Below are positions 34,890 through 52,357 of a DNA stretch of 64,000 bases, piece after piece. The notes under the pieces were generated by a model, which saw only the letters and a program-made list of their open reading frames with translations, was not told the DNA's origin and made no database searches. Both the position numbers and the translations under genes were made by a program. Origin of the DNA: a virus; the IMG/VR virus record IMGVR_UViG_3300040809_000996, positions 80,119 through 144,118 of that record. One strand, given 5' to 3'. Within the stretch, counting starts at the first letter, position 1. Each line of letters starts with the position of its first letter.

Positions 34890-34927
34890 AGGCAAATCTT
34901 TCTTAAATAGTATAAAGGTATTTAACA

Positions 34928-35773: not shown

Positions 35774-35801
35774 TATATAATAATATTTTGTTAGGATTTT
35801 T

Positions 35802-37010
35802 ATGACTATTGAAGATTATATTGAAATATTATCAACATTAGATGTTGACACACGAGATAGAAAATTAATTACTAGTTTATCAAGTCAAATTAAAAAAAAC
35901 ATAGGTTTAACTGATAGACAGCATTCCTTGGCAAAAAAGAAGGTAAAAGAATATGAAAAAGAGTTCTCAAAAAATGGTTATGATATTAATGACGGATTAG
36001 ATAATTTAAGACATCCCTATAGAGAAATAGACAGATCTAAAAAAGTTTTTTTGGTTGAAAAAGAGTCGTTTACTTTATTTGATAATGAAAAGAAAGTAAT
36101 GATAGGAATTACATTTCCTTACTCTAATAAAATGATAAAGCATATAAATTTTATAAAATCTTTGCAAGATAGGAATGATTATGATAGTAAATCGAAAACT
36201 CATTTTTTAAAATTAAATGAGAAGAATGTATTTGAAATTGTAGATAGATTAAAAGAATGTAATTTTGAAATTGATGAAGAATTGCTAAATTTTTATAATA
36301 TTATACAAAAATTTATTGAGTCTAAAAATGATTTTATACCGGGTATTGTAAATTATAAATTTGTCAATACATCAAAAATTGCTGAAGAATATGCAATAAA
36401 AATCTTAGGAGTTCCTACTGTAAAAAATCTTGCATTATATTATGACAGGAAAGATATTCTTGGATTAAATTTATTTGATAGTAACGAATTAAATAGATCA
36501 TTTTCGATGCTTACGCCATTGGCAGAAAAAATTGCAAAACTTGAAAATAAAAATATATTCATGTCAAAAATTATACATACTTTTTTTGATGTGTGTAATG
36601 TAATAAATGAACTTAAAAGATTTCCTTTGTTAGTAATTTTATCTAAAGGACAAGAAAATCAAGATCTAGTTGATTTGATAGACAGTTTACAAAAATTCAT
36701 AGATATAAAAGACATAAGCGTACTGTTTAGACTAGACAACATATCTGGAAATAATATCGACTTTAACGAAAATGTAAAAAAGTTTAAATTAAATAACAAA
36801 ATTACAGAAGCAACACAGGTAATTATTATTAATAATGAAAAACTTCCTAAGCCTTTACTTATTAGTAAATGGCAGCCAACCACAACATTACTTTTAGCTA
36901 GTATAAGACATAGCAGACTTGTGTCAACATATTATAATAAATGTGAACTAGTCATTCACTTTGATACTCAACCTACTACTTGGATTCATCAAAAAACAAC
37001 AGAAATATGA
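35802..37010 (+). CDS. HARP-like accessory protein, unknown
   Basis: 402 residues. The segment FLVEKESFTLFDNEKKVMIGITFPYSNKMIKHINFIKSLQ, then THFLKLNEKNVFEIVDRLKECNFEIDEELLNFY (about residues 78-168), resembles the HARP domain that precedes the helicase in SMARCAL1-type proteins. The second half (LGVPTVKNLALYYDRKDILGLN, FPLLVILSKGQENQDLVDLIDSL) looks like a degenerate helicase-type alpha/beta domain without Walker motifs. The stop codon overlaps the uvsW ATG (ATGA), a fusion-like layout. Resemblance is remembered, not aligned. Confidence 0.4.
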   Translation: MTIEDYIEILSTLDVDTRDRKLITSLSSQIKKNIGLTDRQHSLAKKKVKEYEKEFSKNGYDINDGLDNLRHPYREIDRSKKVFLVEKESFTLFDNEKKVMIGITFPYSNKMIKHINFIKSLQDRNDYDSKSKTHFLKLNEKNVFEIVDRLKECNFEIDEELLNFYNIIQKFIESKNDFIPGIVNYKFVNTSKIAEEYAIKILGVPTVKNLALYYDRKDILGLNLFDSNELNRSFSMLTPLAEKIAKLENKNIFMSKIIHTFFDVCNVINELKRFPLLVILSKGQENQDLVDLIDSLQKFIDIKDISVLFRLDNISGNNIDFNENVKKFKLNNKITEATQVIIINNEKLPKPLLISKWQPTTTLLLASIRHSRLVSTYYNKCELVIHFDTQPTTWIHQKTTEI

Positions 37011-38470
37011 CATCATGTAAATTAATTATCGAAGATGAAGTCAATATTAAGTTAGAAGGACTTCCAGTTGAGATACGTAGGAAACTTGCAAATGCACTTA
37101 AATTTGAAGTACCATATGCACGTTACATGCCGCAGTATAAACTCGGTAGATGGGATGGAAAGGTAGCATTTTTTGGTATAGGCGGTACAGGATACGTCAA
37201 TCATCTCAATACAATCGTAGAGATATTGCAAAACAATAATGTAGAGATCTCTGACATAGAAGATCGCAGGCATCCTGTTACACTAGACTTCCAACCTATA
37301 ACAGAAGACTATTGGAAACAACAAGGAGTAAAATGGCCTGAAGGACATCCTGCAGCAGGTGAAGATATTGTATTAAGAGATTATCAAGTAGAAGCTATAA
37401 ATAATTTTGTTAAGAATCCGCAGTCTCTACAGGAGATTGCAACAGGCGCTGGTAAAACTATTACCACCGCAACACTCTCACACATAGCGGAAAAATATGG
37501 ACGAACACTTGTCGTTGTTCCAAACAAATCTCTTGTGCAACAAACTGAAGAAGATTACCGAAATTGCGGGCTGGACTGCGGCGTATACTTTGGCGATAGG
37601 AAAGACCTATCCAAAACACATACCATATGCACTTGGCAAAGTCTCAACATACTAGATAAGAAAAGTAAAGACGGTACAGCAGTATTGACACTTGCAGAGT
37701 TCTTAGACGGTGTAAGCACAATAATAATTGACGAAGTGCATCAAGCAAAGGCCGAGGTCTTGAAGAATTTGCTTACACGCAACCTACGTAATGCTCCGAT
37801 ACGTTGGGGACTAACAGGTACAGTGCCTAAAGAACGTTTTGAATTCGAAGCACTACACGCAAGTATAGGACCTGTTATTGGACAGATTACAGCTAAAGAA
37901 TTGCAGGACAAAGGTGTACTGTCTAACTGTCATGTAAACATTGTACAGCTAATAGACACAGTTGCACACAGAGACTATCAAAGCGAATTAAAATATCTTG
38001 TAACCGAAGAAAATCGTGTAAACTACATTGCTAAAATGTTAAATAAGATTAAGGAATCTGGTAACACACTTATATTAATTGATCGTATTAGTGCGGGCGA
38101 ACTTTTGCATGAACGTATAGAAAATTCAATTTTTATAAAAGGTGATGTAAAATTAAAGGACAGAAAATCAGCTTATGATGAAATTCAAGATGCAGACAAT
38201 ATGGTTATCGTTGCAACTTACGGGGTTGCTGCTGTGGGGATCAATATTCCTCGTATTTTTAATCTTGTTTTAATTGAACCTGGCAAAAGTTTTGTTCGGG
38301 TAATACAATCAATTGGACGAGGAGTTCGTAAAGCTAAGGACAAAGACTTTGTACAGATTTGGGATTTTACTAGTACTTGCAAATTTGCAAAAAGACATTT
38401 AACAGAGCGGAAAAAATTTTATAGAGACGCTCAATATCCATTTACAATAGAAAAGGTTGACTGGCAATGA
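37007..38470 (+). CDS. uvsW: UvsW-like SF2 helicase
   Basis: 487 residues from the ATG at 37007, which overlaps the stop of the previous gene; T4 UvsW is 503. Motif I ATGAGKT (about 145-151), LVVVPNKSLVQQ (Ia), DEVH (242-245), WGLTGTVP (III) and QSIGRGVRKAKDKD (VI) are all intact. UvsW reverses stalled forks, unwinds R-loops and branches, and shifts replication away from origin R-loops in T4. The N-terminal 100 residues (PQYKLGRWDGKVAFF) hold the DNA-binding domain. Confidence 0.9.
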   Translation: MTSCKLIIEDEVNIKLEGLPVEIRRKLANALKFEVPYARYMPQYKLGRWDGKVAFFGIGGTGYVNHLNTIVEILQNNNVEISDIEDRRHPVTLDFQPITEDYWKQQGVKWPEGHPAAGEDIVLRDYQVEAINNFVKNPQSLQEIATGAGKTITTATLSHIAEKYGRTLVVVPNKSLVQQTEEDYRNCGLDCGVYFGDRKDLSKTHTICTWQSLNILDKKSKDGTAVLTLAEFLDGVSTIIIDEVHQAKAEVLKNLLTRNLRNAPIRWGLTGTVPKERFEFEALHASIGPVIGQITAKELQDKGVLSNCHVNIVQLIDTVAHRDYQSELKYLVTEENRVNYIAKMLNKIKESGNTLILIDRISAGELLHERIENSIFIKGDVKLKDRKSAYDEIQDADNMVIVATYGVAAVGINIPRIFNLVLIEPGKSFVRVIQSIGRGVRKAKDKDFVQIWDFTSTCKFAKRHLTERKKFYRDAQYPFTIEKVDWQ

Positions 38471-38973
38471 GAATACTTACATTAGAAAACAAAACTTATG
38501 ATCTTAATAATTTACCAGATGAAATCGAAGAAGATTTTAGATTTAGTGTACTAGATAACAGTGACCCGTCGGATCCTGATTTCTTTTTTATTCCATTAAT
38601 CTTTTTAGAATCTTTTAGTAGTCCTGCTATAGCTATGGATATCAACGGAAATGAAATTATCATGCCAGTTGATTGGCATATTGCTGTGGGTGATCGTAAT
38701 ACAGGTAAAGATTTAGAAATACTACCTTTAACGAGTTTAAACGACAGAGGCTTTGATGCATTCTTGTTCAATCCATTAAAAAGTTTTAAAGCAGATTATG
38801 GAGAAATAAAAATTACAAATTTTTACAATGATGTAAAATGGTACTTTCCAAAAATGAAAAATGGTCAACTTTTATCTGTTCCATTAAATAACGATGATAA
38901 TCCATTGTGTGCTTTTTTTGTAAAGGATGTATCGAGACAAACTGAAGTCATTGATTTTTGTAATCTTATATAG
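38467..38973 (+). CDS. Conserved protein next to uvsW, unknown
   Basis: 168 residues. No motif recognised; IPLIFLESFSSPAIAMDINGNEIIMPVDWHIAVGD, EILPLTSLNDRGFDAFLFNPL and PLCAFFVKDVSRQTEVIDF look like conserved blocks of marine T4-like genomes. Acidic and predicted soluble. It starts in a 4-bp overlap with uvsW and lies upstream of the probable clamp-loader gene, so a replication or late-transcription role is possible by context. Confidence 0.6.
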   Translation: MRILTLENKTYDLNNLPDEIEEDFRFSVLDNSDPSDPDFFFIPLIFLESFSSPAIAMDINGNEIIMPVDWHIAVGDRNTGKDLEILPLTSLNDRGFDAFLFNPLKSFKADYGEIKITNFYNDVKWYFPKMKNGQLLSVPLNNDDNPLCAFFVKDVSRQTEVIDFCNLI

Positions 38974-38984
38974 TAATATATATT

Positions 38985-39437
38985 ATGGCTAATAAACTAC
39001 CAGTAAAAGATATTCTTGCTGCAGTTGATATGGGCGCAAAATCTGTTTGGAAAGAATTAGATGACGAATCTAAAAAAGGTATATCCTTTTGGTTAATGAA
39101 TAGATATGCTTCAAGTGTTGCAGGAAAAAGAGAAAAACAGGAACTTGCTGTCTTAAAAACAAACGAATACTATAACAAAAACTATATGGTTGTTAGTTCA
39201 CATCAGGAACTACAATGGCAGTTATTATGCTTATGCGGAAACACAGGCAAAATAGAATTCCATAAATGGCAAGGATTAAAATCAAATGTCACAAACGTGA
39301 CCGGAAAGTTTGAAAAAATACTTACAAAAATTTATCCTGAAAGAAAGGCAGACGAAATTGAATTGCTAGCTCAATTGTCTACAGAGGATGAAATTAAACA
39401 GCTAATTGAGGATCATGCGCTTGACATCAAACTCTAA
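38985..39437 (+). CDS. gp62: Probable clamp-loader small subunit (gp62-like)
   Basis: 150 residues. The order FWLMNRYASSV, KTNEYYNKNY, QWQLLCLCGNTGKIEFHKW parallels the T4-like gp62 pattern of NR-x-LS, N-x-x-N, Q-F-x-x-L and R-F-x-K-W, and the length fits marine gp62 proteins (about 130-150). With gp44 (not in this window) it would load the gp45 clamp. The identification rests on motif order and size; a small unrelated replication protein cannot be excluded. The last 23 bp overlap the next gene. Confidence 0.5.
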   Translation: MANKLPVKDILAAVDMGAKSVWKELDDESKKGISFWLMNRYASSVAGKREKQELAVLKTNEYYNKNYMVVSSHQELQWQLLCLCGNTGKIEFHKWQGLKSNVTNVTGKFEKILTKIYPERKADEIELLAQLSTEDEIKQLIEDHALDIKL

Positions 39438-40110
39438 GTATACCTGCGAATACTGTAACACATCATACACACGAGAAAAAACACTTTTTGCACATTTATG
39501 CGAAAAGAAACGCAGAGCGTTACAGCGAGATGAGAAAAGGGTACAGTTAGGCTTCTATGCATTTAATCAATTTTACAAACGTAGTATGGGCTCTAAGAAA
39601 GATAAGACGTATGAAGAATTTTGCAAGAGTCCATACTACAACAGTTTTGTAAAATTTGGTAGCTTCCTTAACAATGTCAAACCACTATATCCAGAAAAGT
39701 ATGTAGACTATGTTGTAACAAGTGGCGTGAAGTTAGAACAATGGTGTAAAGAAGAATTATATGAACGTTACGCAATTGAGCTTATTAAAAAAGAAGATGT
39801 AACTACTGCGCTAGAACGTAGTGTACTTACAATGACTGAATGGGCCGAAGAAAATCCGCCAGCAGTATGGAATCATTATTTTAATTTAGTTAGTACAAAC
39901 AGAGCTGTATATCATATTAAAGATGGAAAAATTTCTCCTTGGATTGTTTTAAATAGCACCAGCGGTAAACAAATGCTTGATAAATTTAATGAAGAGCAAT
40001 TAAAAATGATATATCATATTGTTGATCCTGAACACTGGGCACTAAAATTTAAAAGACAAACAAAAGATTTAGAATTAGCAAAACAAATTATTAAAGAAAG
40101 TAGACTATGA
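39415..40110 (+). CDS. Zinc-finger conserved protein
   Basis: 231 residues from the ATG at 39415; an in-frame TTG three codons upstream is less likely. A C2H2-like finger YTCEYCNTSYTREKTLFAHLCEKKRRALQ (about 9-37) opens the protein, followed by a conserved helical body (VQLGFYAFNQFYKRS, FCKSPYYNSFVKFGSFLNNVKPL, WIVLNSTSGKQMLDKF). No catalytic motif. DNA or RNA binding is inferred from the finger. It overlaps both neighbours. Confidence 0.65.
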   Translation: MRLTSNSKYTCEYCNTSYTREKTLFAHLCEKKRRALQRDEKRVQLGFYAFNQFYKRSMGSKKDKTYEEFCKSPYYNSFVKFGSFLNNVKPLYPEKYVDYVVTSGVKLEQWCKEELYERYAIELIKKEDVTTALERSVLTMTEWAEENPPAVWNHYFNLVSTNRAVYHIKDGKISPWIVLNSTSGKQMLDKFNEEQLKMIYHIVDPEHWALKFKRQTKDLELAKQIIKESRL

Positions 40111-40604
40111 AACTTGTATATTATCCAGACGAATTTCTATCTAAAAAAGTCAATTCGGTTAATATCGATAACGTAGATTTTAATCCAGTAGACTTAAAAA
40201 ATGAAATGGTAGAATTTATGTTAAGTAACAATGGAATTGGATTATCAGCGAATCAGATTGGTTTAGATGCACAATTGTTTGTTATGGGAGACGGTAAAGA
40301 GAATAACTCGATTTTAATTAACCCTGTTGTACTTCAGCACACAAAAGAAATTGTTATTGACATAGAAGGCTGTTTAAGTTTTCCAAATGTATTTGCACAA
40401 GTAAAACGACCAAAAGAAATCCTAGTAGAGTATTATGATGAAAACTTAGAAAAGAAAAGAACACATTTAAAAGATTATAGTGTTAAAGTATTTTTGCACG
40501 AATATGATCACTTACAGGGTATTACTTTTAAAGATCGTGTATCCCCACTAGTTTGGAAAATGGCTAATAAAAAAGCAAAAAAAATACAAAAACATTATGC
40601 CTAA
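40107..40604 (+). CDS. def: Peptide deformylase
   Basis: 165 residues. All three family motifs are intact: GIGLSANQ (43-50), EGCLS (97-101) and HEYDH (131-135), giving the Cys and two His metal ligands and the catalytic Glu. The enzyme removes the formyl group from nascent proteins. Phage deformylases in marine cyanophages are small and C-terminally shortened like this one. It may be needed when host protein synthesis is redirected. Coupled by an ATGA-type overlap to its upstream neighbour. Confidence 0.92.
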   Translation: MKLVYYPDEFLSKKVNSVNIDNVDFNPVDLKNEMVEFMLSNNGIGLSANQIGLDAQLFVMGDGKENNSILINPVVLQHTKEIVIDIEGCLSFPNVFAQVKRPKEILVEYYDENLEKKRTHLKDYSVKVFLHEYDHLQGITFKDRVSPLVWKMANKKAKKIQKHYA

Positions 40605-40953
40605 TGTTATTATCATTATTATTATTTGGTTATTATTTACAATTTTACTCTACACCTTTACTGGGTGGAAGGAAATAATAAATTGTTATAAATTATGGTT
40701 TACAAAAAAGTATTGGACTAATTATAATATAATCGAAGCTGCAAGTTGGTTTACAAAAGCTATTATTATTATACCTGGACTATTATGGAAAATACAAATT
40801 TGGCAATTATATTTTTTAAGTCTATTTACAAGTGCAACATTAATATGGGCAAGCAATAAAAAACTGTTGCCTACGCTTGTTAGTTTTAATACATTATGGC
40901 TTTGGATAAGTTTAATGGTTTTATATCCTAATATAATTTTATACATAGAATAG
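40597..40953 (+). CDS. Small integral membrane protein
   Basis: 118 residues with about four hydrophobic helices (VIIIIIIWLLFTILLYTF; AIIIIPGLLWKI; YFLSLFTSATLIWA; TLWLWISLMVLYPNIIL) and almost no soluble part. Trp-rich and basic loops. No family recognised. It overlaps the deformylase gene by 8 bp. Superinfection exclusion or lysis inhibition would be typical phage roles for such a protein; neither is shown. Confidence 0.6.
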   Translation: MPNVIIIIIIWLLFTILLYTFTGWKEIINCYKLWFTKKYWTNYNIIEAASWFTKAIIIIPGLLWKIQIWQLYFLSLFTSATLIWASNKKLLPTLVSFNTLWLWISLMVLYPNIILYIE

Positions 40954-40954
40954 C

Positions 40955-41518
40955 ATGCCTGATATTGATATAGATTTTGCAGATAGGAATAATATTCTTT
41001 CAAAAATAGAACATCGGATTGCAACTATTGATGACACAAAAAAACATAATACTGGGATATACGTAACAGAAATTCCGCATAATCCTATTAATAATTATGC
41101 TTCAATTGATTATAAACAAGCAGAAGATAGAGGATATTTTAAATTAGATTTCCTAAATGTTTCAATTTACAAAGATGTAAATGATGAAGAACATTTAATT
41201 CGTTTAATGGAAAAAGAACCATTGTGGGAATTATTAGAACACAAAGAATTTGTTGATTTACTTTTCCATTTATCAGGACATTCAGAAATTTGTAAAAAAC
41301 TTAAACCTAAAAACATAGAACAACTTGCTGCTGTACTTGCTATAATTAGACCTGCAAAGAGATATCTATTGAATGAAAATTGGAGTACCATACTATCAGA
41401 AGTATGGTCGAAACCTGATGACAATAAATACTATTTTAAAAAAGCTCATGCAATATCTTATGCAGTTGCAATTACTGTACACATGAATTTAATTTGCGAA
41501 AATGTAATCAGTAAATGA
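40955..41518 (+). CDS. Miniature DnaE-like protein
   Basis: 187 residues that match scattered blocks of DNA polymerase III alpha in order: PDIDIDFADR at residues 2-11 (the DnaE PDFDVDF palm motif with two catalytic Asp), HNTGIYVTEIP (DnaE HAGGVVI), YFKLDFLNVSIY (DnaE VKFDFLGL, third Asp), LFHLSGHSEICKKLKPKNIEQLAAVLAIIRPA (DnaE FQLESRGM...RLQP...ALFRPG) and KKAHAISYAVAITVHMNLI (DnaE NKSHSAAYALVSYQ). All PHP, fingers, clamp-binding and OB parts are missing. Whether it polymerises is unknown. Confidence 0.72.
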   Translation: MPDIDIDFADRNNILSKIEHRIATIDDTKKHNTGIYVTEIPHNPINNYASIDYKQAEDRGYFKLDFLNVSIYKDVNDEEHLIRLMEKEPLWELLEHKEFVDLLFHLSGHSEICKKLKPKNIEQLAAVLAIIRPAKRYLLNENWSTILSEVWSKPDDNKYYFKKAHAISYAVAITVHMNLICENVISK

Positions 41519-42138
41519 AAGATACTTATCTAGTTACTTTTAATAATAAAAATAAAATTTTGGTTACAGTTGCTAATAAATGTGGATCAAGTTCTGTAAT
41601 AACTATATTAGGTTATCCATTTTTAGGATCTTTTAAATTTAGAAAAGATACTAGAAAAATTCCAACTAAAAATTGGGCAAATGGCCAAATTGTCAAATTA
41701 TCAAAAGACCAAATTTTTTCTTTTACAACCAGAGTTGCAATAATCAGAGACCCTGTTGAGAGATTTGTAAGTGCATACAAGGATAGAGTCCTACAAAGGA
41801 ATAAAGATCATATAAAACAAACAGTAAAATCGTTTACACAATTTGTCAACGAGTATGAAACAATTATTCTAAATTATCGTGACATCAGAAATCACACCCG
41901 TTCTTTAATAACGTCTTATGGTAGCGATCCGTCTATATATACTGAAATAATTTTAACAAAAAATATAGGTGATAAATTTATTCCATTAGTAGAAAATGTT
42001 TCACTTACAGAAAATATTCCTAATGTGTTTTACAAAAATTCTTTTGCAGTTGAGTTTTTTGATATTAGAAAAGATGAAGTGGATAAAATAAAAAATTTAT
42101 ATAAAGAAGACTATAGAGTTTACGGAAATTATTTTTAA
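41515..42138 (+). CDS. Sulfotransferase-like protein
   Basis: 207 residues. TVANKCGSSSVITIL near residue 18 fits the 5'-PSB loop that binds the PAPS phosphate, and VAIIRDPVERFVSAYKDRV (about 75-93) is the 3'-phosphate-binding RDPxxRxxSxY motif of sulfotransferase families. The catalytic His/Lys cannot be fixed by eye. The acceptor could be a virion or host-surface sugar, given the sugar island; this is inference. Overlaps the mini-DnaE gene by 4 bp. Confidence 0.72.
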   Translation: MKDTYLVTFNNKNKILVTVANKCGSSSVITILGYPFLGSFKFRKDTRKIPTKNWANGQIVKLSKDQIFSFTTRVAIIRDPVERFVSAYKDRVLQRNKDHIKQTVKSFTQFVNEYETIILNYRDIRNHTRSLITSYGSDPSIYTEIILTKNIGDKFIPLVENVSLTENIPNVFYKNSFAVEFFDIRKDEVDKIKNLYKEDYRVYGNYF

Positions 42139-42509
42139 TTTTTTTTTGGTTTCCTTACCATTTGAATACTTTTCCGCTTAACACGTTTTAAATGAAGACT
42201 TCCTAAATTGACTGTAGGACCAATAATTATATCAACATCTTTTGTATTCAAATTTTTTAAACAATATTTTAATGGAACTATATCATGTCGTAAAAAGATT
42301 GTAATAGGAATCATTCGATTACTTTCCATCCACCACATTTCTCCTAATTGTAGAAAAAATTTTTTATCTTTTAGATTTTTTAAGATAGAATAATCTAAAA
42401 TAGTGGTAATAAATGAATCTTGGTTTACTATAATTCCAACATATTCTTTACCACCATATTGTATTAAACTTATAAACGGATACTTTTCTTCTATATCTTT
42501 TCGTAGCAT
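42135..42509 (-). CDS. Conserved marine-phage protein, unknown
   Basis: 124 residues from the ATG at 42509 (MLRKDIEEKYPFISLI); an upstream extension would overlap the divergent gene. YGGKEYVGIIVNQD, LQLGEMWWMESNRMIPITIFL and DVDIIIGPTVNLGSLHLKRVKRKSIQ form a compact alpha/beta protein with a basic C-terminus, a type I have seen repeatedly in T4-like cyanophages. The function is not known to me; the conserved fold and basic tail suggest nucleic-acid contact. Overlaps the end of the sulfotransferase-like gene by 4 bp. Confidence 0.65.
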   Translation of the reverse strand: MLRKDIEEKYPFISLIQYGGKEYVGIIVNQDSFITTILDYSILKNLKDKKFFLQLGEMWWMESNRMIPITIFLRHDIVPLKYCLKNLNTKDVDIIIGPTVNLGSLHLKRVKRKSIQMVRKPKKN

Positions 42510-42528
42510 TAATAATAGTATTCTTTCT

Positions 42529-42536
42529 AATAAATA
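42529..42536 (+). promoter_or_regulatory. Late promoter -10 box ending 4 nt before an ATG
   Basis: AATAAATA, then TAAT, then the ATG at 42541. There is no ribosome-binding site before that ATG. Confidence 0.6.
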
Positions 42537-42540
42537 TAAT

Positions 42541-43305
42541 ATGCAGCTTATACCAAGATATTTAGTAAAAAATACAATTATAATTGTAACAAATGAAACA
42601 GGATTTGACACGGAGTACATGCCAGTGTATAGTAGACAGATAAAAGCCTACCGGGGTATTGACAATAAAATACAATTTAAAATAGTTAATGCAGATCAAA
42701 AACCAATGGATATAACCGATTATATGCCTACATTTGTAGCGTTTGACGAAACAAAAAGACAAGTTATAAGAAGAGTAGGCACTGTACAAGATGGAGCTAA
42801 AGGTAAATTTGAGATTAACATTACAGAAAATGATTTATTAAACATTCAAAGACAGTACTTACGTTACAATATCTATCTTACAGATTTAGAAGGTGATAAT
42901 CATTTAACCTTCGCAGATAGTAATTTTGATAACAATGCCACTCTGTTTGTTGACGATTATGCATTTCCAGGACCAGCAGAACCGCACACTGTATCTACTT
43001 TTGTACAAGACAATACAGAATGGATTAGTGAGGCCATATCAGCAGAACCTGCTCTCAACGGTAACGAAGCTTTACATACAGCAGCAATATATACAAACAA
43101 TTATGTAGGTAATGCAACACTAGAAGCTACACTTGATGTAAACATTAATGAAGATACTAGTTGGGCACCGATAAACACGATAACATTTGATGGTACAGAA
43201 ACAATGCCTGCTTATTTTAATTTTAGAGGCGTATACAACTACTTACGATTTAAGACAACTGCATCACCAAATGATACCGTAACAAAAATTTTAGTAAGGA
43301 ATTAG
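42541..43305 (+). CDS. BppU-type baseplate or virion structural protein
   Basis: 254 residues from the ATG at 42541 (MQLIPRYLVKNTIII); a longer frame from 42403 would overlap the opposite gene and the promoter. RQIKAYRGIDNKIQFKIVNADQKPMDITDYMPTFVAFD resembles the N-terminal BppU fold of baseplate proteins. Two further beta domains follow (YLTDLEGDNHLTFADSNFDNNATLFVDDYAF and NATLEATLDVNINEDTSW). Coupled to the next structural gene (8-bp gap). Late, probably leaderless expression. Confidence 0.65.
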   Translation: MQLIPRYLVKNTIIIVTNETGFDTEYMPVYSRQIKAYRGIDNKIQFKIVNADQKPMDITDYMPTFVAFDETKRQVIRRVGTVQDGAKGKFEINITENDLLNIQRQYLRYNIYLTDLEGDNHLTFADSNFDNNATLFVDDYAFPGPAEPHTVSTFVQDNTEWISEAISAEPALNGNEALHTAAIYTNNYVGNATLEATLDVNINEDTSWAPINTITFDGTETMPAYFNFRGVYNYLRFKTTASPNDTVTKILVRN

Positions 43306-43313
43306 GAATAGGT

Positions 43314-43691
43314 ATGGCAACAAGTGAAACTATTATAGCAACCCAGACGCACCCGGGAGACAGTTCAGAACAAACTATTACAAGTGAAAAATTTAAAGGC
43401 GATGGTTATTATGGTCGTGCAGATGGCTTCCATACCGTACAAGTTGTGCTCACAGGATTCTTAGGTAAAGTAGAAATACAAGCATCACTAGCTACCGATC
43501 CTGCAGACGAAGATTGGTTTACAGTTAACATAACAGATGTGACTACAAATACAATATCGAATTATGTTGAATATCTTGTAAATGAAACCAGTAGTAAAAT
43601 GTATAACTTTACTGGTAATTTTGTATGGGTTAGATGTTTAATAACATCGTGGACTGATGGTTCTGTTAATAGTGTAAAACTAAATCATTAA
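43314..43691 (+). CDS. Virion structural protein, unknown
   Basis: 125 residues, beta-rich (VQVVLTGFLGKVEIQASLATDP, WFTVNITDVTTNTISNYVEYLV, FTGNFVWVRCLITSW), similar in style to a discoidin-like jelly roll and to the C-terminal domain of its upstream neighbour (NATLEATL, WAPINTITFDGTE, YNYLRFKTT). The two may form one decoration. AGGAATAGGT serves as ribosome-binding site. Role assigned by context. Confidence 0.55.
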   Translation: MATSETIIATQTHPGDSSEQTITSEKFKGDGYYGRADGFHTVQVVLTGFLGKVEIQASLATDPADEDWFTVNITDVTTNTISNYVEYLVNETSSKMYNFTGNFVWVRCLITSWTDGSVNSVKLNH

Positions 43692-43692
43692 C

Positions 43693-43721
43693 TTGACAAA
43701 CGATAGTTACTTTGCTATAAT
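43693..43721 (+). promoter_or_regulatory. Consensus sigma-70 promoter for the primase gene
   Basis: TTGACA (43693-43698), a 17-bp spacer, TATAAT (43716-43721): both hexamers match the consensus exactly. The ATG is 6 nt after the -10 box, so the expected start of transcription falls on or next to the start codon. Confidence 0.88.
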
Positions 43722-43727
43722 TAAAAT

Positions 43728-44708
43728 ATGAGCATTGTATCTAATATTGTATCTGTACACATACCAGCAAAGAAAAAAATTACACCTAGTGGTTGGATAA
43801 GTTTTAATGCCCCGTGTTGTCATTATAATGGACACGCACAGGATACAAGAGGTCGCGGCGGTTTAATTATAAATGGCGACGAAGGTGTAACTTATCACTG
43901 CTTTAATTGTGGTTTTAAATGTAGCTGGCAAGCTGGACGTAATCTTTCTTTAAAATTTAAAAATTTTTTAAGTTGGATTGGCGTTCCTGATACTACAATT
44001 AATCAACTCGCCTTAGATTTATTAAAACAAATTGATAATAAAAAATCAAAACTGCATGATATCAAAGTACCAGCATTTAAAAAAATAAAACTACCAGATA
44101 ATGTTGTTTGTATTAACGATTCTATTAGTGTTGATAAAAATTTAATTCCAATTATAGAATATATTGTAAATAGAGGATTAGATTTTAATGATACAAATTT
44201 TTATTGGTCTAGTAAAATAGGATATAGAGATAGATTAATTATTCCTTTTTATTATGAAAATGAAATTGTTGGTTATACAGCACGTACAACACAAAATAAA
44301 AAACCAAAATATATAACCAATTCACAGCCTGGATATGTTTTTGGGCTAGACCAGCAAAAAGAAAATTATAAACTTACACTAGTTTGCGAAGGCCCTATTG
44401 ATGCACTACTTATTGGCGCTACTAGTATTTTAGGATCTGAAATATCAACTGGTCAGGCATTATTATTAAATTCATTAGAAACTGAAAAAATTATAATACC
44501 GGACAGAGATCCTGCTGGAAAAAAATTAATCAACCAAGCAATAGATCTAGGCTGGAGTGTAAGTTTTCCTATGTGGAGTAAAGATATAAATGACATAGGT
44601 GACGCTGTACATAAATACGGTAGGATGTTAACTTTATACAGTATTATCACCGCAATAGAAACATCTAATTTAAAAATAAATTTAAGGGCAAAAAAATGGT
44701 TTGGTTAA
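43728..44708 (+). CDS. gp61: DNA primase (gp61-like)
   Basis: 326 residues (T4: 342). The zinc domain is CCHYNGH...CFNCGFKC (C30/C31, then C58, C61, C65) in GWISFNAPCCHYNGHAQDTRGRGG. The toprim core has LVCEGPIDALL (Glu motif) and IIPDRDPAG (DxD). It makes RNA primers with gp41 encoded at 46750. The sole consensus sigma-70 promoter precedes it and predicts a leaderless mRNA. Confidence 0.9.
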   Translation: MSIVSNIVSVHIPAKKKITPSGWISFNAPCCHYNGHAQDTRGRGGLIINGDEGVTYHCFNCGFKCSWQAGRNLSLKFKNFLSWIGVPDTTINQLALDLLKQIDNKKSKLHDIKVPAFKKIKLPDNVVCINDSISVDKNLIPIIEYIVNRGLDFNDTNFYWSSKIGYRDRLIIPFYYENEIVGYTARTTQNKKPKYITNSQPGYVFGLDQQKENYKLTLVCEGPIDALLIGATSILGSEISTGQALLLNSLETEKIIIPDRDPAGKKLINQAIDLGWSVSFPMWSKDINDIGDAVHKYGRMLTLYSIITAIETSNLKINLRAKKWFG

Positions 44709-44830
44709 AAGAAAAATTAAGCATTATTTGGTATTGGATATCTTATCCTTATTACTGGATTAAAGATGAAATAAAATACCGGAAAAAATTAAAAAAATTA
44801 AGAGAAGACGATCCTTTTATATATGATTAA
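44696..44830 (+). CDS. Small membrane-associated protein between primase and carbamoyltransferase
   Basis: 44 residues. The first half is aromatic and hydrophobic (LSIIWYWISYPYYWI), the second is basic then acidic (YRKKLKKLREDDPFIYD). It starts 13 bp inside gp61 in another frame, ends one base before the carbamoyltransferase ATG and has no own ribosome-binding site, so it would be translated by coupling. Amphipathic membrane peptide; function unknown. Small size limits confidence. Confidence 0.5.
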   Translation: MVWLKEKLSIIWYWISYPYYWIKDEIKYRKKLKKLREDDPFIYD

Positions 44831-46354
44831 ATGATTACATGGGGAATTAGTGCTAATAGTCATGACGCTGCAATTAGTGTGCATAACAACGACAAAATAA
44901 AATTTGCAAGTCATGCAGAAAGATTTAGCCATAAAAAAAATGATGCACACTTAAATCCTAGTATTATTAATTATGCACTACAATGGGGGCAGCCTGATAG
45001 GATTGTTTGGTATGAAAAACCTTTTCTAAAAACTACAAGACAATGGTATGCAGGACAAAAAGATTTATTCAATAAGAATCGCATAAAAAAATATTTGACA
45101 CAATATGGTATAACATCGCCTATATCAACAGTAGGTCATCATCGTTCACATACAGCAGCGGGATATTATACTAGTGGATTTGATCATGCAACAATTCTAG
45201 TCATAGATGCAATAGGAGAATGGAATACACTAAGTGTGTGGGAAGGTGAGTATGATAAACTAACCTGTAAACGGACATGGAACTATCCTAACAGCATAGG
45301 TATTTGGTATAGTGCAATGACACAGCGCATAGGTCTTAAACCAAATGAGGAAGAATACATACTTATGGGTATGGCAGCATATGGAGATGCAGGTAAGTAT
45401 GGAGAAACAATATTAAACGATTTTTGGGAACAATTTCCTAACCATTTAAACTTTTTTAATCGCCTTCCTAACTTCCAGCTAAAGCACAATCTACATAGGG
45501 GATGCATGTGGTGGGAACCTACTAAGATTGCATTTAATATCTTAGACGATAAACAAGAATTTACACAATGGGCGTATGACGTAGCAGCAGGAACGCAATG
45601 GGCATATGAGCATATATTAACTAAGATAAGTAAGGCTGTAGCTAGGACATATGCTAGCAGTAACCTAGTGTTTATGGGTGGTTGTGCATTGAATTGCAGT
45701 GCTAACAGCAAGATAGTTGAACACTGGAATGGTGAAGGTAACATTTGGATAATGCCTAATCCGGGCGATGCAGGCAGTTGCATAGGAGCAGTGCTTGCAC
45801 ATAGAGGCACACATATAGAATGGCCTGGACCGTATCTGGGTTATGATATAGAAGGAGAATATCCAGTAGATGAAATCATTACAGAACTTATGCAAACAGG
45901 TATTGCAGGGGTTGCGTCAGGAAGAGCCGAGTTCGGTCCTCGTAGCCTTGGCGCTCGCAGCCTTCTTGCTGACCCTCAGCGTATGGATATTAAAGATAAA
46001 GTCAATGCCATTAAACGTAGACAGAAGTTCCGTCCCTTCGCACCTGCAGTCCTTGCAGAACACGCATCCAGTTTATTTGAGCCGCCCTTCGGACGTTATA
46101 TGCAGTACACCGCACGTTGTCGCTATCCTGAAAGATACCCTGCAATTGTCCACGCAGACGGAACCAGCAGAGTTCAAACAGTTACAAAGCAAGATCACCC
46201 AGGTTTTAGAGCGTTGTTGGAAAGATGGTACGAACTAACAGGCTGTCCTATGTTGTTAAACACTAGTCTCAATATAAAAGGCAAACCGATAGTAAACACA
46301 TTGACAGATGCACAAGAATTTAGTAAACTATACAATGTAAAGGTATTTTCATGA
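44831..46354 (+). CDS. Carbamoyltransferase (NodU/CmcH family)
   Basis: 507 residues. N-terminal Kae1/TsaD-like domain: WGISANSHDAAIS, GHHRSHTAAGYYTSGFDHATILVIDAIGEWNT, GGCALNC. C-terminal YrdC-like region: GRAEFGPRSLGARSLLADP and TGCPMLLNTSLNIKGKPIV, the family's active-site blocks. It transfers a carbamoyl group to a hydroxyl of a sugar or antibiotic-like acceptor. Genes of this type are known in marine cyanophages. Base composition is higher in GC than the genes before it. Confidence 0.9.
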   Translation: MITWGISANSHDAAISVHNNDKIKFASHAERFSHKKNDAHLNPSIINYALQWGQPDRIVWYEKPFLKTTRQWYAGQKDLFNKNRIKKYLTQYGITSPISTVGHHRSHTAAGYYTSGFDHATILVIDAIGEWNTLSVWEGEYDKLTCKRTWNYPNSIGIWYSAMTQRIGLKPNEEEYILMGMAAYGDAGKYGETILNDFWEQFPNHLNFFNRLPNFQLKHNLHRGCMWWEPTKIAFNILDDKQEFTQWAYDVAAGTQWAYEHILTKISKAVARTYASSNLVFMGGCALNCSANSKIVEHWNGEGNIWIMPNPGDAGSCIGAVLAHRGTHIEWPGPYLGYDIEGEYPVDEIITELMQTGIAGVASGRAEFGPRSLGARSLLADPQRMDIKDKVNAIKRRQKFRPFAPAVLAEHASSLFEPPFGRYMQYTARCRYPERYPAIVHADGTSRVQTVTKQDHPGFRALLERWYELTGCPMLLNTSLNIKGKPIVNTLTDAQEFSKLYNVKVFS

Positions 46355-46749: not shown

Positions 46750-48177
46750 ATGTCAAGACAAAATGTAGACTACGGTTATGATATACAAAAAGTATATCTT
46801 GAGATGTTCCTTACAGATGCCGAAAGTTATGTAAGATGTCAAGGTGTATTTGAACCAAAGACGTTTGATAGGCGTTTGCAACCTGCTGCAGAATTCCTAA
46901 AGGATTATGTAGCAGAGCATAACGCATTGCCTACGTTTGACATGATTAATGCTGCCGCTAAATGCGATTTAAAAAATCCAGGTACACTACAAGAACAACA
47001 TTATGATTGGTTGTTGCAGGAGTTTGAAACATTTAGTAGACATAAAGCACTAGAAGATGCAATCCTCAAATCAGCAGACTTACTAGAGAAAGGAGAATAT
47101 GGACCTGTTGAAGATCTAGTTAAGAGAGCAGTACAAATAGGATTACAGAAAGATCTAGGAACAGACTATTGGAGAGACCCCCGTGCAAGATTAGAAGAAA
47201 TAAAAAGTCGTAATGGACAGGTTAGCACAGGCTGGGCTACGCTAGATAAGCGACTGTTTGGTGGATTTAACAGGGGAGAGCTTAATATATTCGCAGGAGG
47301 TAGTGGTGCTGGTAAGAGTTTGTTCTTAGCTAATCTAGGAGTGAATTGGGCGCTGGCAGGACTTAATGTACTGTACTTGACATTTGAGCTTAGTGAGAAT
47401 ATTGTAAGCATGAGGCTTGACAGTATGGTTACAGACATACCCAGCAGAGAGATATTTAAAAGCATAGACGATGTAGAAATGAAAGTAAAGATGATAGGTA
47501 AAAAGTCCGGTGCTTTCCAAGTTAAGTATATGCCAAGTGGTAAGACTGCAAATGATCTACGTAGTTACATTAAAGAGTTTGAGGTTAAGACAGGACGTAA
47601 GATTGAAGTGATACTTGTTGATTATTTAGATCTAATGATGCCTATTGCTAAACGTATATCAGCAGAAAACTTGTTTGTTAAGGACAAATATGTAAGTGAG
47701 GAACTACGTAACCTAGCAATGGAAACTAACACACTGTTTGTTACAGCTAGCCAGCTGAATAGAGCAAGCGTGGAAGAGATAGAGTTTGATCATTCACACA
47801 TATCAGGCGGACTTAGTAAGATACAAACTGCAGATAATGTGATAGGTATCTTTACAAGTAGGGCAATGCGAGAGCGTGGTAGATATCAAATACAGCTAAT
47901 GAAAACACGTAACTCGAGTGGTGTTGGTAGTAAAGTAGATCTAGAATTTGATATTGATAATTTGCGTATACGTGATATGAACGAGGACGAAGACTATCAA
48001 GAATTTAACAAACGTAAGAGCACAGTGTTTGACCAGATCAAAAGGACTGCACAAACACAACAGGAAACCGTGAGAGAGGATCCTGCAGAAGGAGATACAG
48101 TAGGTAAGATCAAAGCCAAAACTGACAGTACTAAACTTAAAGAATTCTTAAATAACCTAAACACTGAAACAGACTAA
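46750..48177 (+). CDS. gp41: Replicative DNA helicase (gp41-like)
   Basis: 475 residues, exactly the size of T4 gp41. Walker A GGSGAGKS (about 183-190), VLYLTFELSENIVSMRLD (H1a), VILVDYLDLM (Walker B), FVTASQLNRASVE and the arginine finger region MKTRNSSGVG are all DnaB-type. It unwinds DNA at the fork and recruits gp61. Acidic C-terminus. No ribosome-binding site is evident; it starts directly after the previous stop codon. Confidence 0.92.
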   Translation: MSRQNVDYGYDIQKVYLEMFLTDAESYVRCQGVFEPKTFDRRLQPAAEFLKDYVAEHNALPTFDMINAAAKCDLKNPGTLQEQHYDWLLQEFETFSRHKALEDAILKSADLLEKGEYGPVEDLVKRAVQIGLQKDLGTDYWRDPRARLEEIKSRNGQVSTGWATLDKRLFGGFNRGELNIFAGGSGAGKSLFLANLGVNWALAGLNVLYLTFELSENIVSMRLDSMVTDIPSREIFKSIDDVEMKVKMIGKKSGAFQVKYMPSGKTANDLRSYIKEFEVKTGRKIEVILVDYLDLMMPIAKRISAENLFVKDKYVSEELRNLAMETNTLFVTASQLNRASVEEIEFDHSHISGGLSKIQTADNVIGIFTSRAMRERGRYQIQLMKTRNSSGVGSKVDLEFDIDNLRIRDMNEDEDYQEFNKRKSTVFDQIKRTAQTQQETVREDPAEGDTVGKIKAKTDSTKLKEFLNNLNTETD

Positions 48178-48186: not shown

Positions 48187-49020
48187 ATGGCGTGTGGATG
48201 CGGACGAAGTCCAGATTTTTGTAGAGGATGGCATGCTTTATCAGAAGCAGAATGGCAAGCAGAACTATTAATACTGCAAGCAGAACAAGTTGCGGAAAAA
48301 CCAAAAAACGATAAACATGTTGTAATGGTTAGAGAAGTACAGCACTATACTGATACACTGTTTAGATTTGTTACAGACAAACCAGTAGACTACACATTTA
48401 AAGCAGGTGAGTTTGTAATGATCGGGCTTGGTGATAAGGTACGCAGAGCGTATTCAATTACCAGTTCTCCTGAAGATAATCATTTAGAATTTTATTCGAT
48501 CAAGGTGCCTGACGGAGCACTTACTTCAAGGCTAAAAAATATTCAGCCTGGTGATACAGTTGAAGTAGGCGCTAAGGCAACAGGCACCCTGTTATTAGAA
48601 AACCTAAAGCCAGGTCGCAGGCTTTGGTTACTTGCAACAGGAACAGGTATTGCACCTTTTATGAGCTTAGTAAGACAGAAGGATATTTTCAATGTTTTCG
48701 CAGAAGTTAATGTAGCATGGAGTGTAAGAGAGCAAGACGAGCTTAAAGCATATAGGGCAGACCTAACAGGATACGATCTAAATTTATTTCCTATTGTAAC
48801 TAGAGATGAATTGTATATTGGATATCAGAAACGTATTACAGAACTTATCAATGATAAGGTATTACTAGGAGAAATGGATCCTCAACAAGATCGTGTAATG
48901 CTTTGCGGTAGTATGGAGTTTAATGAAGACTTAAAACGTATACTTGACGCAAATAGATTTGCAGAAGGTAATACAGGAACTCCTGGAGATTATGTAGTAG
49001 AGAAAGCCTTTGTAGGCTAA
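48187..49020 (+). CDS. Ferredoxin-NADP reductase-like protein with CDGSH-like N-terminus
   Basis: 277 residues. The first 16 carry C3-x-C5-x2-S8-P9-x2-C12-x-G14-x-H16, close to the CDGSH [2Fe-2S] pattern but two residues shorter between the second and third Cys. Residues 40-277 form an FNR: RAYSITSS (FAD-binding, 87-94), TGTGIAPF (NADP-binding, 151-158), CGSMEF near 240 and terminal VEKAFVG. It would move electrons between NADPH, FAD and a cluster or ferredoxin; in a marine phage it could feed the ribonucleotide reductase or oxygenases. AAGGAG precedes the ATG. Confidence 0.8.
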   Translation: MACGCGRSPDFCRGWHALSEAEWQAELLILQAEQVAEKPKNDKHVVMVREVQHYTDTLFRFVTDKPVDYTFKAGEFVMIGLGDKVRRAYSITSSPEDNHLEFYSIKVPDGALTSRLKNIQPGDTVEVGAKATGTLLLENLKPGRRLWLLATGTGIAPFMSLVRQKDIFNVFAEVNVAWSVREQDELKAYRADLTGYDLNLFPIVTRDELYIGYQKRITELINDKVLLGEMDPQQDRVMLCGSMEFNEDLKRILDANRFAEGNTGTPGDYVVEKAFVG

Positions 49021-49085: not shown

Positions 49086-50729
49086 ATGGCAAACACAGAT
49101 TTAGATAATATAGAAAGGCTCATGGGTCGCTTTAAAAGACCCGTACCCGAAGGCGAAGAATACAAGCTAAGGCTAGTAGAAGAATTCGAACTAATCCTCA
49201 ATCAACGCTTCACAGATTACTTCCTCCAAATATGTGATATAATAGATCTCACAGACGATCTTACCCACATGACACGTGGCAGCGCAGGCTCTAGCCTCAT
49301 CTGTTACCTACTTGGTATTACAGATGTTGATCCTGTACTGTGGCGTATACCAGTTGCACGTTTTATGAATCCAATGCGTGATGACTTGCCTGATGTTGAC
49401 ATAGACTTTGAGCATCACAGGCAGAATGAAGTTATGCAGCGGATATTTAAAAAATGGCCTGGTAAGACTGCACGTTTAAGCAACTACGTTACATATAAAG
49501 AAAAGAGCGCACGTAGAGAAGCAGCAAAGCGTTTGGGTGCTACAGGAGCTTTAAAGCGTGGATTTACGTATGAATCTGCGGGTGTGGATCCTAAGGAAGC
49601 CAAACGTATAGAACGCAAGCTCTTGGGCAAGAAGCGTTGTATAAGCAAGCACTGTGGCGGTGTAGTAATGTTTACACGCCAGCTACCCAAAAGTCTTATA
49701 TCAGCAGATAATCAAATACTGCTGGACAAATATGAAGTAGAAGACCTAGAGCACCTTAAGGTAGATATCCTAGCTAATCGTGGACTGTCGCAACTGCTAG
49801 AAATAGATCCAGATACAGCACTTGCAGACTATCCACGCACGGATCCTGCTACTAGTGAACTGTTGTGCAGGGGAGATGTGCTGGGTGTTACACAAGGCGA
49901 GTCTCCTGCGATGCGTAGGTTATTCCGTGCGCTACAACCGCAGAGCGTGGAGGATTGTGTGTTTGCTACTGCACTGATACGTCCAGTAGCACTATCAGGT
50001 AGGCAGAAGGCTGCTATGTTCCACGACTGGAGCAGAGAAGCAGTACAGGACACAATAGTGTTTGAGGATGATGCTATTGAGATTATCAGTGATATAATAG
50101 ATGTAGACAACTACGAAGCAGACATGTATCGCCGTGCGTTTGCAAAGAAGAACGATTCAAGGATACTTGAATTTATGCAACGGATAGGAGATCATCCACG
50201 CAAGCAAGAAGCTATTACAGCACTGCAAGAGCTAAGTGGCTTTGGATTGTGCAGGGCGCATGCTGTTAACCTAGGCCGGCTTATCTGGGCACTGGCATAT
50301 CAGAAAGCACATAACAAACGCAAGTTCTGGGCAGCATGTCTAAAGCACTGTCAAGGTAGTTATAGGCGCTGGGTATACAACTGTGAAGCACACAGGGTGA
50401 AAGTGCCTGCAGAACCGGGCTGGTGGCACAAGGGATTTCCGGACGGGCTTGGTGTACGACAGCAGTGGCTTGACCGTGTAGAGTTTGCAGGTATTGTAGC
50501 TAACGGTCGTGCATTCCGTGGTACTAACGGACGCTGGGTAACATTCTTAACACTAGGCACAGGCTATGGCGAATACATAGACGTTACAGTGCAAAGACCA
50601 GTAGCATATAGAGATTATGACATCGTATATGGTCAAGGTCGCATCCGCACACAGGACAGATCAGATTATATACATACAGTAGATACCAAGTGTTACACTT
50701 TTAAACAATGGGGTGAGATAAATAAATGA
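49086..50729 (+). CDS. DnaE-like family C polymerase core without PHP domain
   Basis: 547 residues. RGSAGSSLICYLLGI, LPDVDIDFE (first two catalytic Asp), ISKHCGGVVMF, LEHLKVDILANRGLSQL (third Asp), GVTQGESPAMRRLFRALQPQSVEDCVFATALIRP, MYRRAFAKK and GFGLCRAHAVNLGRLIWALAYQKAH follow the palm, fingers and tail blocks of DNA polymerase III alpha in order. The N-terminal PHP domain is absent; the C-terminal 130 residues resemble an OB-fold (GRWVTFLTL). A T4-type family B polymerase would normally replicate this genome. Ends in a 4-bp overlap with the channel-like gene. Confidence 0.85.
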   Translation: MANTDLDNIERLMGRFKRPVPEGEEYKLRLVEEFELILNQRFTDYFLQICDIIDLTDDLTHMTRGSAGSSLICYLLGITDVDPVLWRIPVARFMNPMRDDLPDVDIDFEHHRQNEVMQRIFKKWPGKTARLSNYVTYKEKSARREAAKRLGATGALKRGFTYESAGVDPKEAKRIERKLLGKKRCISKHCGGVVMFTRQLPKSLISADNQILLDKYEVEDLEHLKVDILANRGLSQLLEIDPDTALADYPRTDPATSELLCRGDVLGVTQGESPAMRRLFRALQPQSVEDCVFATALIRPVALSGRQKAAMFHDWSREAVQDTIVFEDDAIEIISDIIDVDNYEADMYRRAFAKKNDSRILEFMQRIGDHPRKQEAITALQELSGFGLCRAHAVNLGRLIWALAYQKAHNKRKFWAACLKHCQGSYRRWVYNCEAHRVKVPAEPGWWHKGFPDGLGVRQQWLDRVEFAGIVANGRAFRGTNGRWVTFLTLGTGYGEYIDVTVQRPVAYRDYDIVYGQGRIRTQDRSDYIHTVDTKCYTFKQWGEINK

Positions 50730-51202
50730 TGAATGAACATGTACAAACTAGACTTAAATGGTATACGGTATTCTGTGTAAGTGTATTAGTGATGTATCTC
50801 AGCTGGACGTTTGGATTCCTGGACAGCCTATACAAGAGTGACATTACTAAGATTAGCTGGGTTATTATAGGATTATATTTCTTATTCTCTCTGAGACTAG
50901 GCTACAGATTACACCGATTTGACCGTGATAAAGACAGATACACTTTTAGCACCAATCCAGAATGGTTCGCCGGTGAGACCATGCTGAGCTTAGGAATGAT
51001 AGGAACTGTGGTAGGATTTATCTACATGCTAACCACAGTGTTTATAGATTTAAATGTAGAAGATACCGCAAGTGTACAGGAAGCACTGGGTATGATGGCT
51101 ACAGGAATGGGAACTGCTCTATGGACTACACTGGTTGGCTTAATTGCGAGTGTGCTGTTAAAGTTACAACTGGTGTTAGTGGATGAGCACGTAGATGGAT
51201 AG
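50726..51202 (+). CDS. MotA/TolQ/ExbB-like membrane protein
   Basis: 158 residues with four predicted helices (about 12-31, 42-57, 85-104, 120-142). The third has GMIGTVVGFIY and the fourth GMGTALWTTLVGLIAS, the conserved GTV-x-G and T-rich segments that line the proton path in ExbB, TolQ and MotA. The loop has a basic stretch (HRFDRDKDR). Such proteins form a pentamer around two ExbD/MotB-like chains. It overlaps the DnaE-like gene by 4 bp and its partner by 8 bp. Confidence 0.72.
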   Translation: MMNEHVQTRLKWYTVFCVSVLVMYLSWTFGFLDSLYKSDITKISWVIIGLYFLFSLRLGYRLHRFDRDKDRYTFSTNPEWFAGETMLSLGMIGTVVGFIYMLTTVFIDLNVEDTASVQEALGMMATGMGTALWTTLVGLIASVLLKLQLVLVDEHVDG

Positions 51203-51851
51203 ACGTTACGTATCAAATCTTGCATTTATAGATTTATTATTCAATTTAATACTTGGTTTTGTGATGCTGTTCCTAATCAGCTTCTTGCTGATTAATAATC
51301 CTGCCAAAACATCTGAAATAGAATACAAAGCAGAGATTATGATTGTAATGAGCTGGCAGGACGATCACGAAGGAGATATTGACCTTTGGGTAGAGACTCC
51401 TAACGGCAAAGTCAGCTACATAAACCCTGTTGCAGGCCATGCACACCTAGACAAGGACGATTTAGGTGTAAGAAATGATTATTATACTTTACCAAATGGC
51501 GAGGTAGAAAAGATCTATCTTAACAGAGAAATAGTTACCCTTAGAGCACTGCAACCAGGCGACTATGTAGTCAATGCCCATTATTATACTACTCCAGGCA
51601 TAGGTTCTGAACAATATGGAACTCGTATTCCTGCAGAAGTAAAAATAGAAGTTTTAAGATTAAACCCGTTCCAAATTATATTTTCAGATGGTAAAACTCT
51701 AGATGCAAAAGGACAAGAAGAAACATTTGTTAGATTTACACTTGATGCAGAAGGCACTGCTACTAAAATAAACAGACTACCTAAACGATTAGTGCAAGCA
51801 CAGGTAGGCACAACAACAACATCAAGCGGTAGTCGTTCAGGAGGCTTTTAA
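51195..51851 (+). CDS. ExbD/TolR/MotB-like single-span protein with periplasmic domain
   Basis: 218 residues. One N-terminal helix FIDLLFNLILGFVMLFLISFLL (about 11-32) carries Asp13 at the position of the essential proton-binding Asp of ExbD/TolR/MotB. The outer part, MSWQDDHEGDIDLWVETPNGKVSYINP, LRALQPGDYVVNAHYY and ITTTSSGSRSGGF at the end, is beta-rich and resembles DUF2135/YfaP-type domains rather than the ExbD or OmpA fold. With 50726-51202 it makes a two-component stator-like pair. Confidence 0.7.
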   Translation: MDRRYVSNLAFIDLLFNLILGFVMLFLISFLLINNPAKTSEIEYKAEIMIVMSWQDDHEGDIDLWVETPNGKVSYINPVAGHAHLDKDDLGVRNDYYTLPNGEVEKIYLNREIVTLRALQPGDYVVNAHYYTTPGIGSEQYGTRIPAEVKIEVLRLNPFQIIFSDGKTLDAKGQEETFVRFTLDAEGTATKINRLPKRLVQAQVGTTTTSSGSRSGGF

Positions 51852-52357
51852 TGACCTATTTATTATTGATTGCAATAGTTGTTGTGCTGCTGATCCTATA
51901 CGCTATTATCAGCACTAGAAGCAGCATACATCTTTATTATATAATTCCTGTTTCACTTGCTTGTGCGATTGGATTATATACTTTTTATGGCAGCATACTG
52001 GGATATCCTACCACACGTTATCTACAATCAAAGTTTGTACTCTTGAGTTATGCTAATTCCGACGATAGATTATTCATGTGGGTAATACACGACAACGATA
52101 CTGAACCTAGAGCTTACTCATTACCGTACACAGAAGAACAGCATGCACAGCTAGAAGCAGCAATGCAGAAGGCACGCAATGGAGTTTGGGTAGAAGGAAA
52201 CTTTAATCAAACATCCGAGGATGACGAAGGCATAGGAGATCTAGGCGATCAGTCAGGTGGTTTAGGTACGAATAAATCCCAAGGCGGAGATATGTTTGAA
52301 CTGTATGACATTGACTCTACAAGATTGCTTCCTCCAAAACAAGAACGACCTAACTAA
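51851..52357 (+). CDS. Third membrane protein of the channel-like module
   Basis: 168 residues with two helices (about 2-19 and 31-48) and a soluble part with LFMWVIHDNDTEPRAYSLPYTEEQHAQLEAAMQKARNG. The tail is acidic and Gly-rich (SEDDEGIGDLGDQSGGLG). No family recognised. It shares one base with the ExbD-like gene (TAATG), so the three are made together. Its 3' end overlaps the convergent oxygenase gene by 8 bp. Confidence 0.65.
   Translation: MTYLLLIAIVVVLLILYAIISTRSSIHLYYIIPVSLACAIGLYTFYGSILGYPTTRYLQSKFVLLSYANSDDRLFMWVIHDNDTEPRAYSLPYTEEQHAQLEAAMQKARNGVWVEGNFNQTSEDDEGIGDLGDQSGGLGTNKSQGGDMFELYDIDSTRLLPPKQERPN

Follow-up and report, generated by a model that had tools for sequence, protein, structure and literature searches.

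A PHP-less, single-chain DnaE-type polymerase core adjoining gp41 in a marine T4-superfamily jumbo phage: a candidate accessory polymerase

Bacteriophage T4 is the textbook example of a one-polymerase replisome. What, then, might a family C polymerase of bacterial type be doing beside the gp41 helicase and gp61 primase of a T4-like phage? The question is raised by an open reading frame at positions 49086–50729 (plus strand, ATG start, 547 aa) of the window, by which we mean the whole 64,000-base stretch analysed here, equivalent to positions 80119–144118 of a 144,118-base source record (G000). That this is a T4-like phage, as the initial annotation proposed, is borne out by its gene content: the window encodes a gp17-type terminase, sheath, gp32-type SSB, UvsX, gp41 and gp61, and a portal, gp21-type protease, gp46/47 and late sigma are found elsewhere in the record. 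Judged by gp41, the nearest isolates are jumbo phages, namely the PA5oct group (51–53%; PA5oct itself 51%) and Atu_ph07 (48%), and the 144-kb record represents part of the genome of a marine T4-superfamily jumbo phage. The two replication genes said to adjoin the polymerase core were both identified in the window, a gp61-like DnaG-type primase at 43728–44708 (phrog_47, 1.9e-39) and a gp41-like replicative helicase at 46750–48177 (phrog_19, 1.7e-69). Between gp41 and the polymerase gene, Pfam places an FAD/NAD oxidoreductase (ferredoxin reductase-like; 48187–49020), and the gene that follows, for a MotA/TolQ/ExbB-like protein (Pfam; 50726–51202), overlaps the polymerase stop by 4 bases. The same neighbourhood includes a UvsW-type SF2 helicase (36980–38470; phrog_16, 1.2e-77), and all of these genes lie on the plus strand.

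The 547-aa protein is a DnaE-type family C polymerase by its palm, its fingers and its three aspartates. Pfam DNA_pol3_alpha (PF07733) covers residues 15–230 (E 8.2e-41) and DNA_pol3_finger residues 244–367 (E 2.8e-16); no other Pfam domain, PHP included, matched up to E 1, and the protein therefore has no PHP domain, in keeping with the initial reading of polymerase III alpha blocks packed into 547 residues. PF00136 (DNA_pol_B, as in T4 gp43) is likewise absent from the protein. Comparison with PolC and DnaE profiles, named at the outset as the check on this reading, gave matches not only in Pfam but also in NCBIfam, with error-prone DnaE at 1.5e-50 and polc at 8e-48, every score falling well short of its curated cut-off. 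A PDB sequence search recovered Mycobacterium tuberculosis DnaE1 (5lew, 3.2e-31), and profile-profile alignment with cellular and phage DnaE gave E 6.8e-67, so that the likeness to DnaE by sequence, profile and model is far beyond chance.

The catalytic centre is intact. Alignment to DnaE of E. coli K-12 places D103, D105 and D227 of the window protein on D401, D403 and D555, the catalytic residues of the E. coli enzyme. All three are aspartate in 82 of 82 sequences of our conservation set (the window protein plus L001–L081, near-copies included) and in 39 of 39 proteins of a wider family C set. The nucleotide-binding RGS motif R64-G65-S66 (49275–49283; E. coli R362-G363-S364), the aspartates D103 and D105 of the PDVDIDF motif (49392–49400) and D227 within KVDIL (49764–49766), all on the plus strand, are each invariant in the 82, and every catalytic and nucleotide-contact position is preserved. 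The equivalence of the three aspartates with the catalytic ones, which the initial annotation had assumed, thus holds both in the alignment and in the lack of any replacement among these homologues. Values of dN/dS were 0.02–0.03 between the window gene and its three nearest copies and 0.016–0.103 in seven further pairs (these ten being the pairs in which the ratio was computable, as four window comparisons saturated at silent sites gave none). Such values point to strong purifying selection, the pattern of a working protein.

Which parts of a DnaE has this protein kept? Its AlphaFold2 model (mean pLDDT 75.4, pTM 0.73; weak around residues 64–67, 95–100, 203–224 and 300–307) resembles the DnaE structures 7pu7 (Z 15.6) and 5fku (Z 14.7), and residues 2–443 superpose on positions 284–812 of E. 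coli DnaE chain 2hnh (Z 15.5). Model and profile alignments begin only at E. coli position 283, run to 812 and resume in the OB region. Only about 17 residues separate model residue 443 (E. coli 812) from a C-terminal OB fold at residues 461–540 (50466–50705, plus strand; AlphaFold2 blocks with mean pLDDT 82–94), which matches SSBs with Z about 8 and an rmsd of 2.0 over 78 residues. The clamp-binding motif of E. coli DnaE lies near position 920, in a region mostly absent here, and a pattern scan found no consistent clamp motif except the fold-conserved QDxIVF at position 321 of the window protein; an unrecognised motif could still bind a clamp. The protein is therefore modelled as palm, thumb, fingers and OB fold, lacking the PHP domain and the C-terminal domain and retaining little of the clamp-binding region. 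The first of these losses had been seen in the initial annotation, but the other two had been missed. In DnaE, PHP is the proofreading and epsilon-binding part and the C-terminal domain binds tau; with neither of these, nor a recognisable clamp-binding region, distributive primer extension without proofreading of its own is to be expected. An RNase_T exonuclease was not found in the 144-kb record.

With PHP, clamp-binding region and C-terminal domain gone and a patchy presence among relatives, the protein might seem to have given up synthesis to become a regulator or a decoy for parts of the host replisome, and a regulatory, non-catalytic role had indeed been raised for it. Such a role is disfavoured because the catalytic residues are invariant and the gene is under purifying selection, and the decoy version fits particularly badly because PHP and the C-terminal domain, the host-binding parts of DnaE, are exactly those missing. 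We consider a non-catalytic or host-directed function very improbable.

The distribution of the gene combines tight linkage with dispensability. Single-chain DnaE was present in 88 of the 156 loci examined besides the window. gp41 is always upstream of it where both are visible, that is in 85 of the 88, the other three being LR756508 and two loci whose sequence begins at the gene or a little ahead of it. All 59 rows with a near-full gp41 (a number that includes the window, plus three repeat fetches of contigs already counted) have DnaE starting 0–2.5 kb past gp41. Distances for DnaE and gp41 agree closely (Mantel r 0.90 over 52 rows, reached in 0 of 2000 permutations), with medians of 0.22 and 0.24, meaning that DnaE evolves as slowly as gp41, and for the most part the two genes have travelled together. 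The initial placement of the polymerase beside gp41 was thus correct, but its patchy distribution had gone unnoticed: 23 relatives with at least 5 kb of sequence past gp41 lack DnaE, and a gp41 tree of these and 56 DnaE-bearing rows needs at least 10 presence/absence changes (gp41 matches of 380 residues or fewer, the three repeat fetches and all undecided rows being left out of the count). In locus L451 the site is cleanly empty, with gp41, the oxidoreductase, the MotA-like gene and the next gene in order and about 22 bases in place of DnaE. Absent from many relatives and with one such empty site, the single-chain DnaE is optional in this lineage. In the window, the MotA/TolQ/ExbB-like gene and the two genes after it occupy 50726–52357, and the first two of these stay with the oxidoreductase gene in L451.

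Has this DnaE replaced gp43 as the replicase of the lineage, working with gp41, gp61 and gp32? The 144-kb record has no match to PolB, PolA or the gp45-type clamp (PF02916), and PF00136 was found in none of the 26 DnaE-bearing records, with T4 as the positive control; the strict adjacency to gp41 and the similar rate of change would also suit a replicase. Relatives with the same gene order (G056, G070 and G071), however, do carry PolB. In G070, gp41 (0.4 kb) and PolB (196 kb) are 195 kb apart, and in G072 (357,559 bases) the coordinates of loci L446 and L365 put the two genes about 185 kb apart, spacings that exceed the reach of every DnaE-bearing record. Because of these distances, the absence of PolB from G000, itself a fragment, proves nothing, and we rejected it as proof of replacement. 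We likewise rejected G036 (169 kb) as a PolB-free relative, since its sequence stops a single gene short of where G056 has its PolB/clamp block. On the gp41 tree, PolB-bearing records also group within the portion that carries DnaE: G070 is in a 44-row set and G072 (L446) in a 33-row set, both containing the window, and both records, of which G072 has PolB and no full DnaE, sit among DnaE-bearing rows, in a tree made by a quick method and with a long-branch warning for L446 and L451. Many close relatives manage without a window-type DnaE, and the protein lacks a clamp-binding region, a C-terminal domain and any proofreader. For these reasons we think it unlikely that the window DnaE is the replicase.

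An enzyme additional to a family B polymerase, a question raised by the initial annotation, is by contrast very plausible from these comparisons. Its footing is that close relatives have PolB and a gp45-like clamp, and that LR756508, the nearest relative with annotation, has PolB as well as a PHP-less DnaE; PolB was found in 67 of 80 loci around its neighbour gene, almost always accompanied by a nearby clamp-like gene (the name clamp following our reading of G056). The two polymerase genes were seen together only in the distant LR756508: no record with both a window-type DnaE and PolB was found among the relatives searched, and 160 loci surrounding PolB or the gene next to it gave no DnaE match. 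On the DnaE side, G001 and G013 extend as far as a lysozyme-like gene that also occurs near PolB, and they are too short to show whether PolB follows. A PolB search in plasmids returned distant matches only. By analogy with its relatives, this very phage would probably encode PolB as well.

A second family C gene lies in the window and had been overlooked, the initial annotation having recognised only the single-chain core. According to Iyer et al. (2021, PMC7824862), group 2.2 jumbo phages carry PolB and a minimal PolIII-alpha made of two proteins, an N-terminal one that binds the nucleotide and a C-terminal one that binds metal and template, with a suggested job of aiding PolB in one strand or in repair; the CBB paper describes a 172-aa truncated PolIII-alpha (PMC5259590) and a marine jumbo phage survey gives PF07733 in 51.9% of its largest cluster (PMC9123017). 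The C-half of this enzyme is encoded at 40955–41518 (plus strand, 187 aa; phrog_11778, E 2.6e-63), separate from the DnaE gene and about 8 kb upstream of it, with MPDIDIDF and KLDFLN motifs and all three aspartates. It was not found with the window-DnaE profile, only with the Atu_ph07 protein as query. We found the C-half in 108 loci or stretches, window included (several overlap or share one record), with both Asp motifs present by pattern in 106; the exceptions are the short fragment L475 and PA5oct, in which the first motif is altered. The N-half (167–183 aa, matching PF07733) was found in 11 of 36 PolB-side records in one set and 1 of 2 in another; these matches were rejected as DnaE, being the N-half only. 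N-half, C-half and PolB are found together in the single record G072, where a full DnaE is absent. Measured against the split enzyme, which comprises two separate proteins in a phage that also has PolB, the window DnaE differs in being one chain and the product of 40955–41518 agrees as a C-half, with PolB present in relatives and absent from this 144-kb fragment. As a separate observation, the N-half family, of about 172 aa, has an RGSSVAS motif and ends at EFLR, before the Asp motif; it occurs in L404, L406, L408 and L410 and on the minus strands of L400–L403, L405, L407, L409 and L506, and in the four plus-strand loci, from PolB-side relatives, it lies directly upstream of what reads as a GroES-like gene.

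It might be supposed that the window DnaE and the split enzyme share one job, the former being a single-chain stand-in or a partner of the 187-aa C-half. The two genes, 8 kb apart, flank gp61 and gp41 and have three aspartates each, and tblastn did not find the N-half in the 144-kb record. Yet the C-half is present in 60 of 60 loci with at least 8 kb upstream of gp41 whether or not they have DnaE (11/11 DnaE-bearing, 25/25 without DnaE and 24/24 undecided), and the two families show no special likeness to each other, hhalign giving 27% (E 7e-4) for window DnaE against the C-half versus 93% (E 4e-7) for the C-half against cellular and other phage DnaE. A functional tie of this kind seems to us unlikely.

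We consider it slightly better than an even chance that the protein is a catalytically active accessory polymerase, its most likely task being gap filling or damage bypass. Cut down to palm, thumb, fingers and an OB fold, this DnaE would be active on primers. Its gene occupies a variable site directly 3' of gp41 in a T4-superfamily jumbo phage whose relatives replicate with a family B enzyme and clamp and have retained a split minimal PolIII-alpha besides. The substrates would most probably be single strands unwound by gp41 or made by recombination. We infer both the polymerase activity and the task, be it gap filling, lesion bypass or synthesis linked to recombination in the vicinity of gp41. 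It is the absent domains and the patchiness, and these two only, that incline us towards repair over replication; slow evolution equal to that of gp41 would also fit a central role. The enzyme would then be accessory and possibly the third polymerase in this phage, a replicase role being less likely. It is tempting to speculate, though with somewhat less than even confidence, that the lineage has three polymerases: a PolB replicase, a two-piece PolIII-alpha and a gp41-coupled DnaE that requires neither clamp nor proofreader. A common marine jumbo branch that maintains as many as two additional family C polymerases alongside gp41 and gp61 would provide a natural system for studying division of labour, here between unrelated polymerases. 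The single-chain protein shows how far a DnaE can be stripped (of PHP, clamp region and C-terminal domain) with its active site under strong selection, and this bears on whether the minimal PolIII-alpha forms of phages are working enzymes.

Among known polymerases, bacterial DnaE1 (PolIII alpha) shares the palm, fingers, three aspartates and OB fold, whereas the window DnaE has no PHP, no C-terminal domain and almost no clamp-binding region. The split minimal PolIII-alpha (phrog_11127, phrog_11778; PMC7824862) is also a family C enzyme without PHP from PolB-bearing, T4-related jumbo phages, but it consists of two short proteins from distant genes, in contrast to the window DnaE, a single polypeptide with its thumb, fingers and OB fold complete. 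DnaE-like polymerases of Streptomyces phages, Cronobacter phage Ss1 and Pbunavirus have the family C palm and fingers but also about 241–396 residues before the palm start (in complete sequences), and they fall on a different branch of our family C tree, which excludes the Pbunavirus protein. A DnaE2 (ImuC) origin, hinted at by NCBIfam, was rejected on a score of 172 bits against a cut-off of 939 and a position apart in the tree, where the DnaE2 clade is eleven alphaproteobacterial proteins assumed to be DnaE2 and a long-branch warning applies. We saw no bacterial copy of the PHP-less type, as the bacterial genomes searched yielded only proteins about 26–33% identical and, where checked, of cellular DnaE length. 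The PHROG profiles phrog_11165 and phrog_21652 appear to begin near the palm, and PHP-less phage forms as such are therefore not new. A single-chain PHP-less DnaE adjoining gp41 is undescribed in the literature we searched, as far as the available text of those papers extends; Kazlauskas and Venclovas (2011), outside that search, may treat it.

The closest parallel to the arrangement proposed here is the uncultured huge phage LR756508 (484 kb), in which a PHP-less DnaE of 574 aa, beginning at the palm, coexists with PolB. This DnaE is 35% identical to the window protein over about 97% of its length and has the three aspartates; it differs in not being beside gp41 (within the 41 kb examined), and it is distant, on a long branch. 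The PolB of LR756508 is in two ORFs (L600:3364–6417 and 9423–11288) with intein-like segments at the break, which suggests a split-intein polymerase. In the window itself, two large ORFs at 17425–20718 (1097 aa) and 20730–22199 (489 aa) have no PHROG match at E 0.001. Modifying enzymes are dense at 29800–46354, among them an FkbM methyltransferase, a glycosyltransferase 8 and a sulfotransferase, and the same region encodes a peptide deformylase and a Nol-like carbamoyltransferase. The phage record also has tryptophan-halogenase-like genes (phrog_2928) at L085:8815–10431 and L085:17874–19391, the second of which is adjoined by further similar ORFs.
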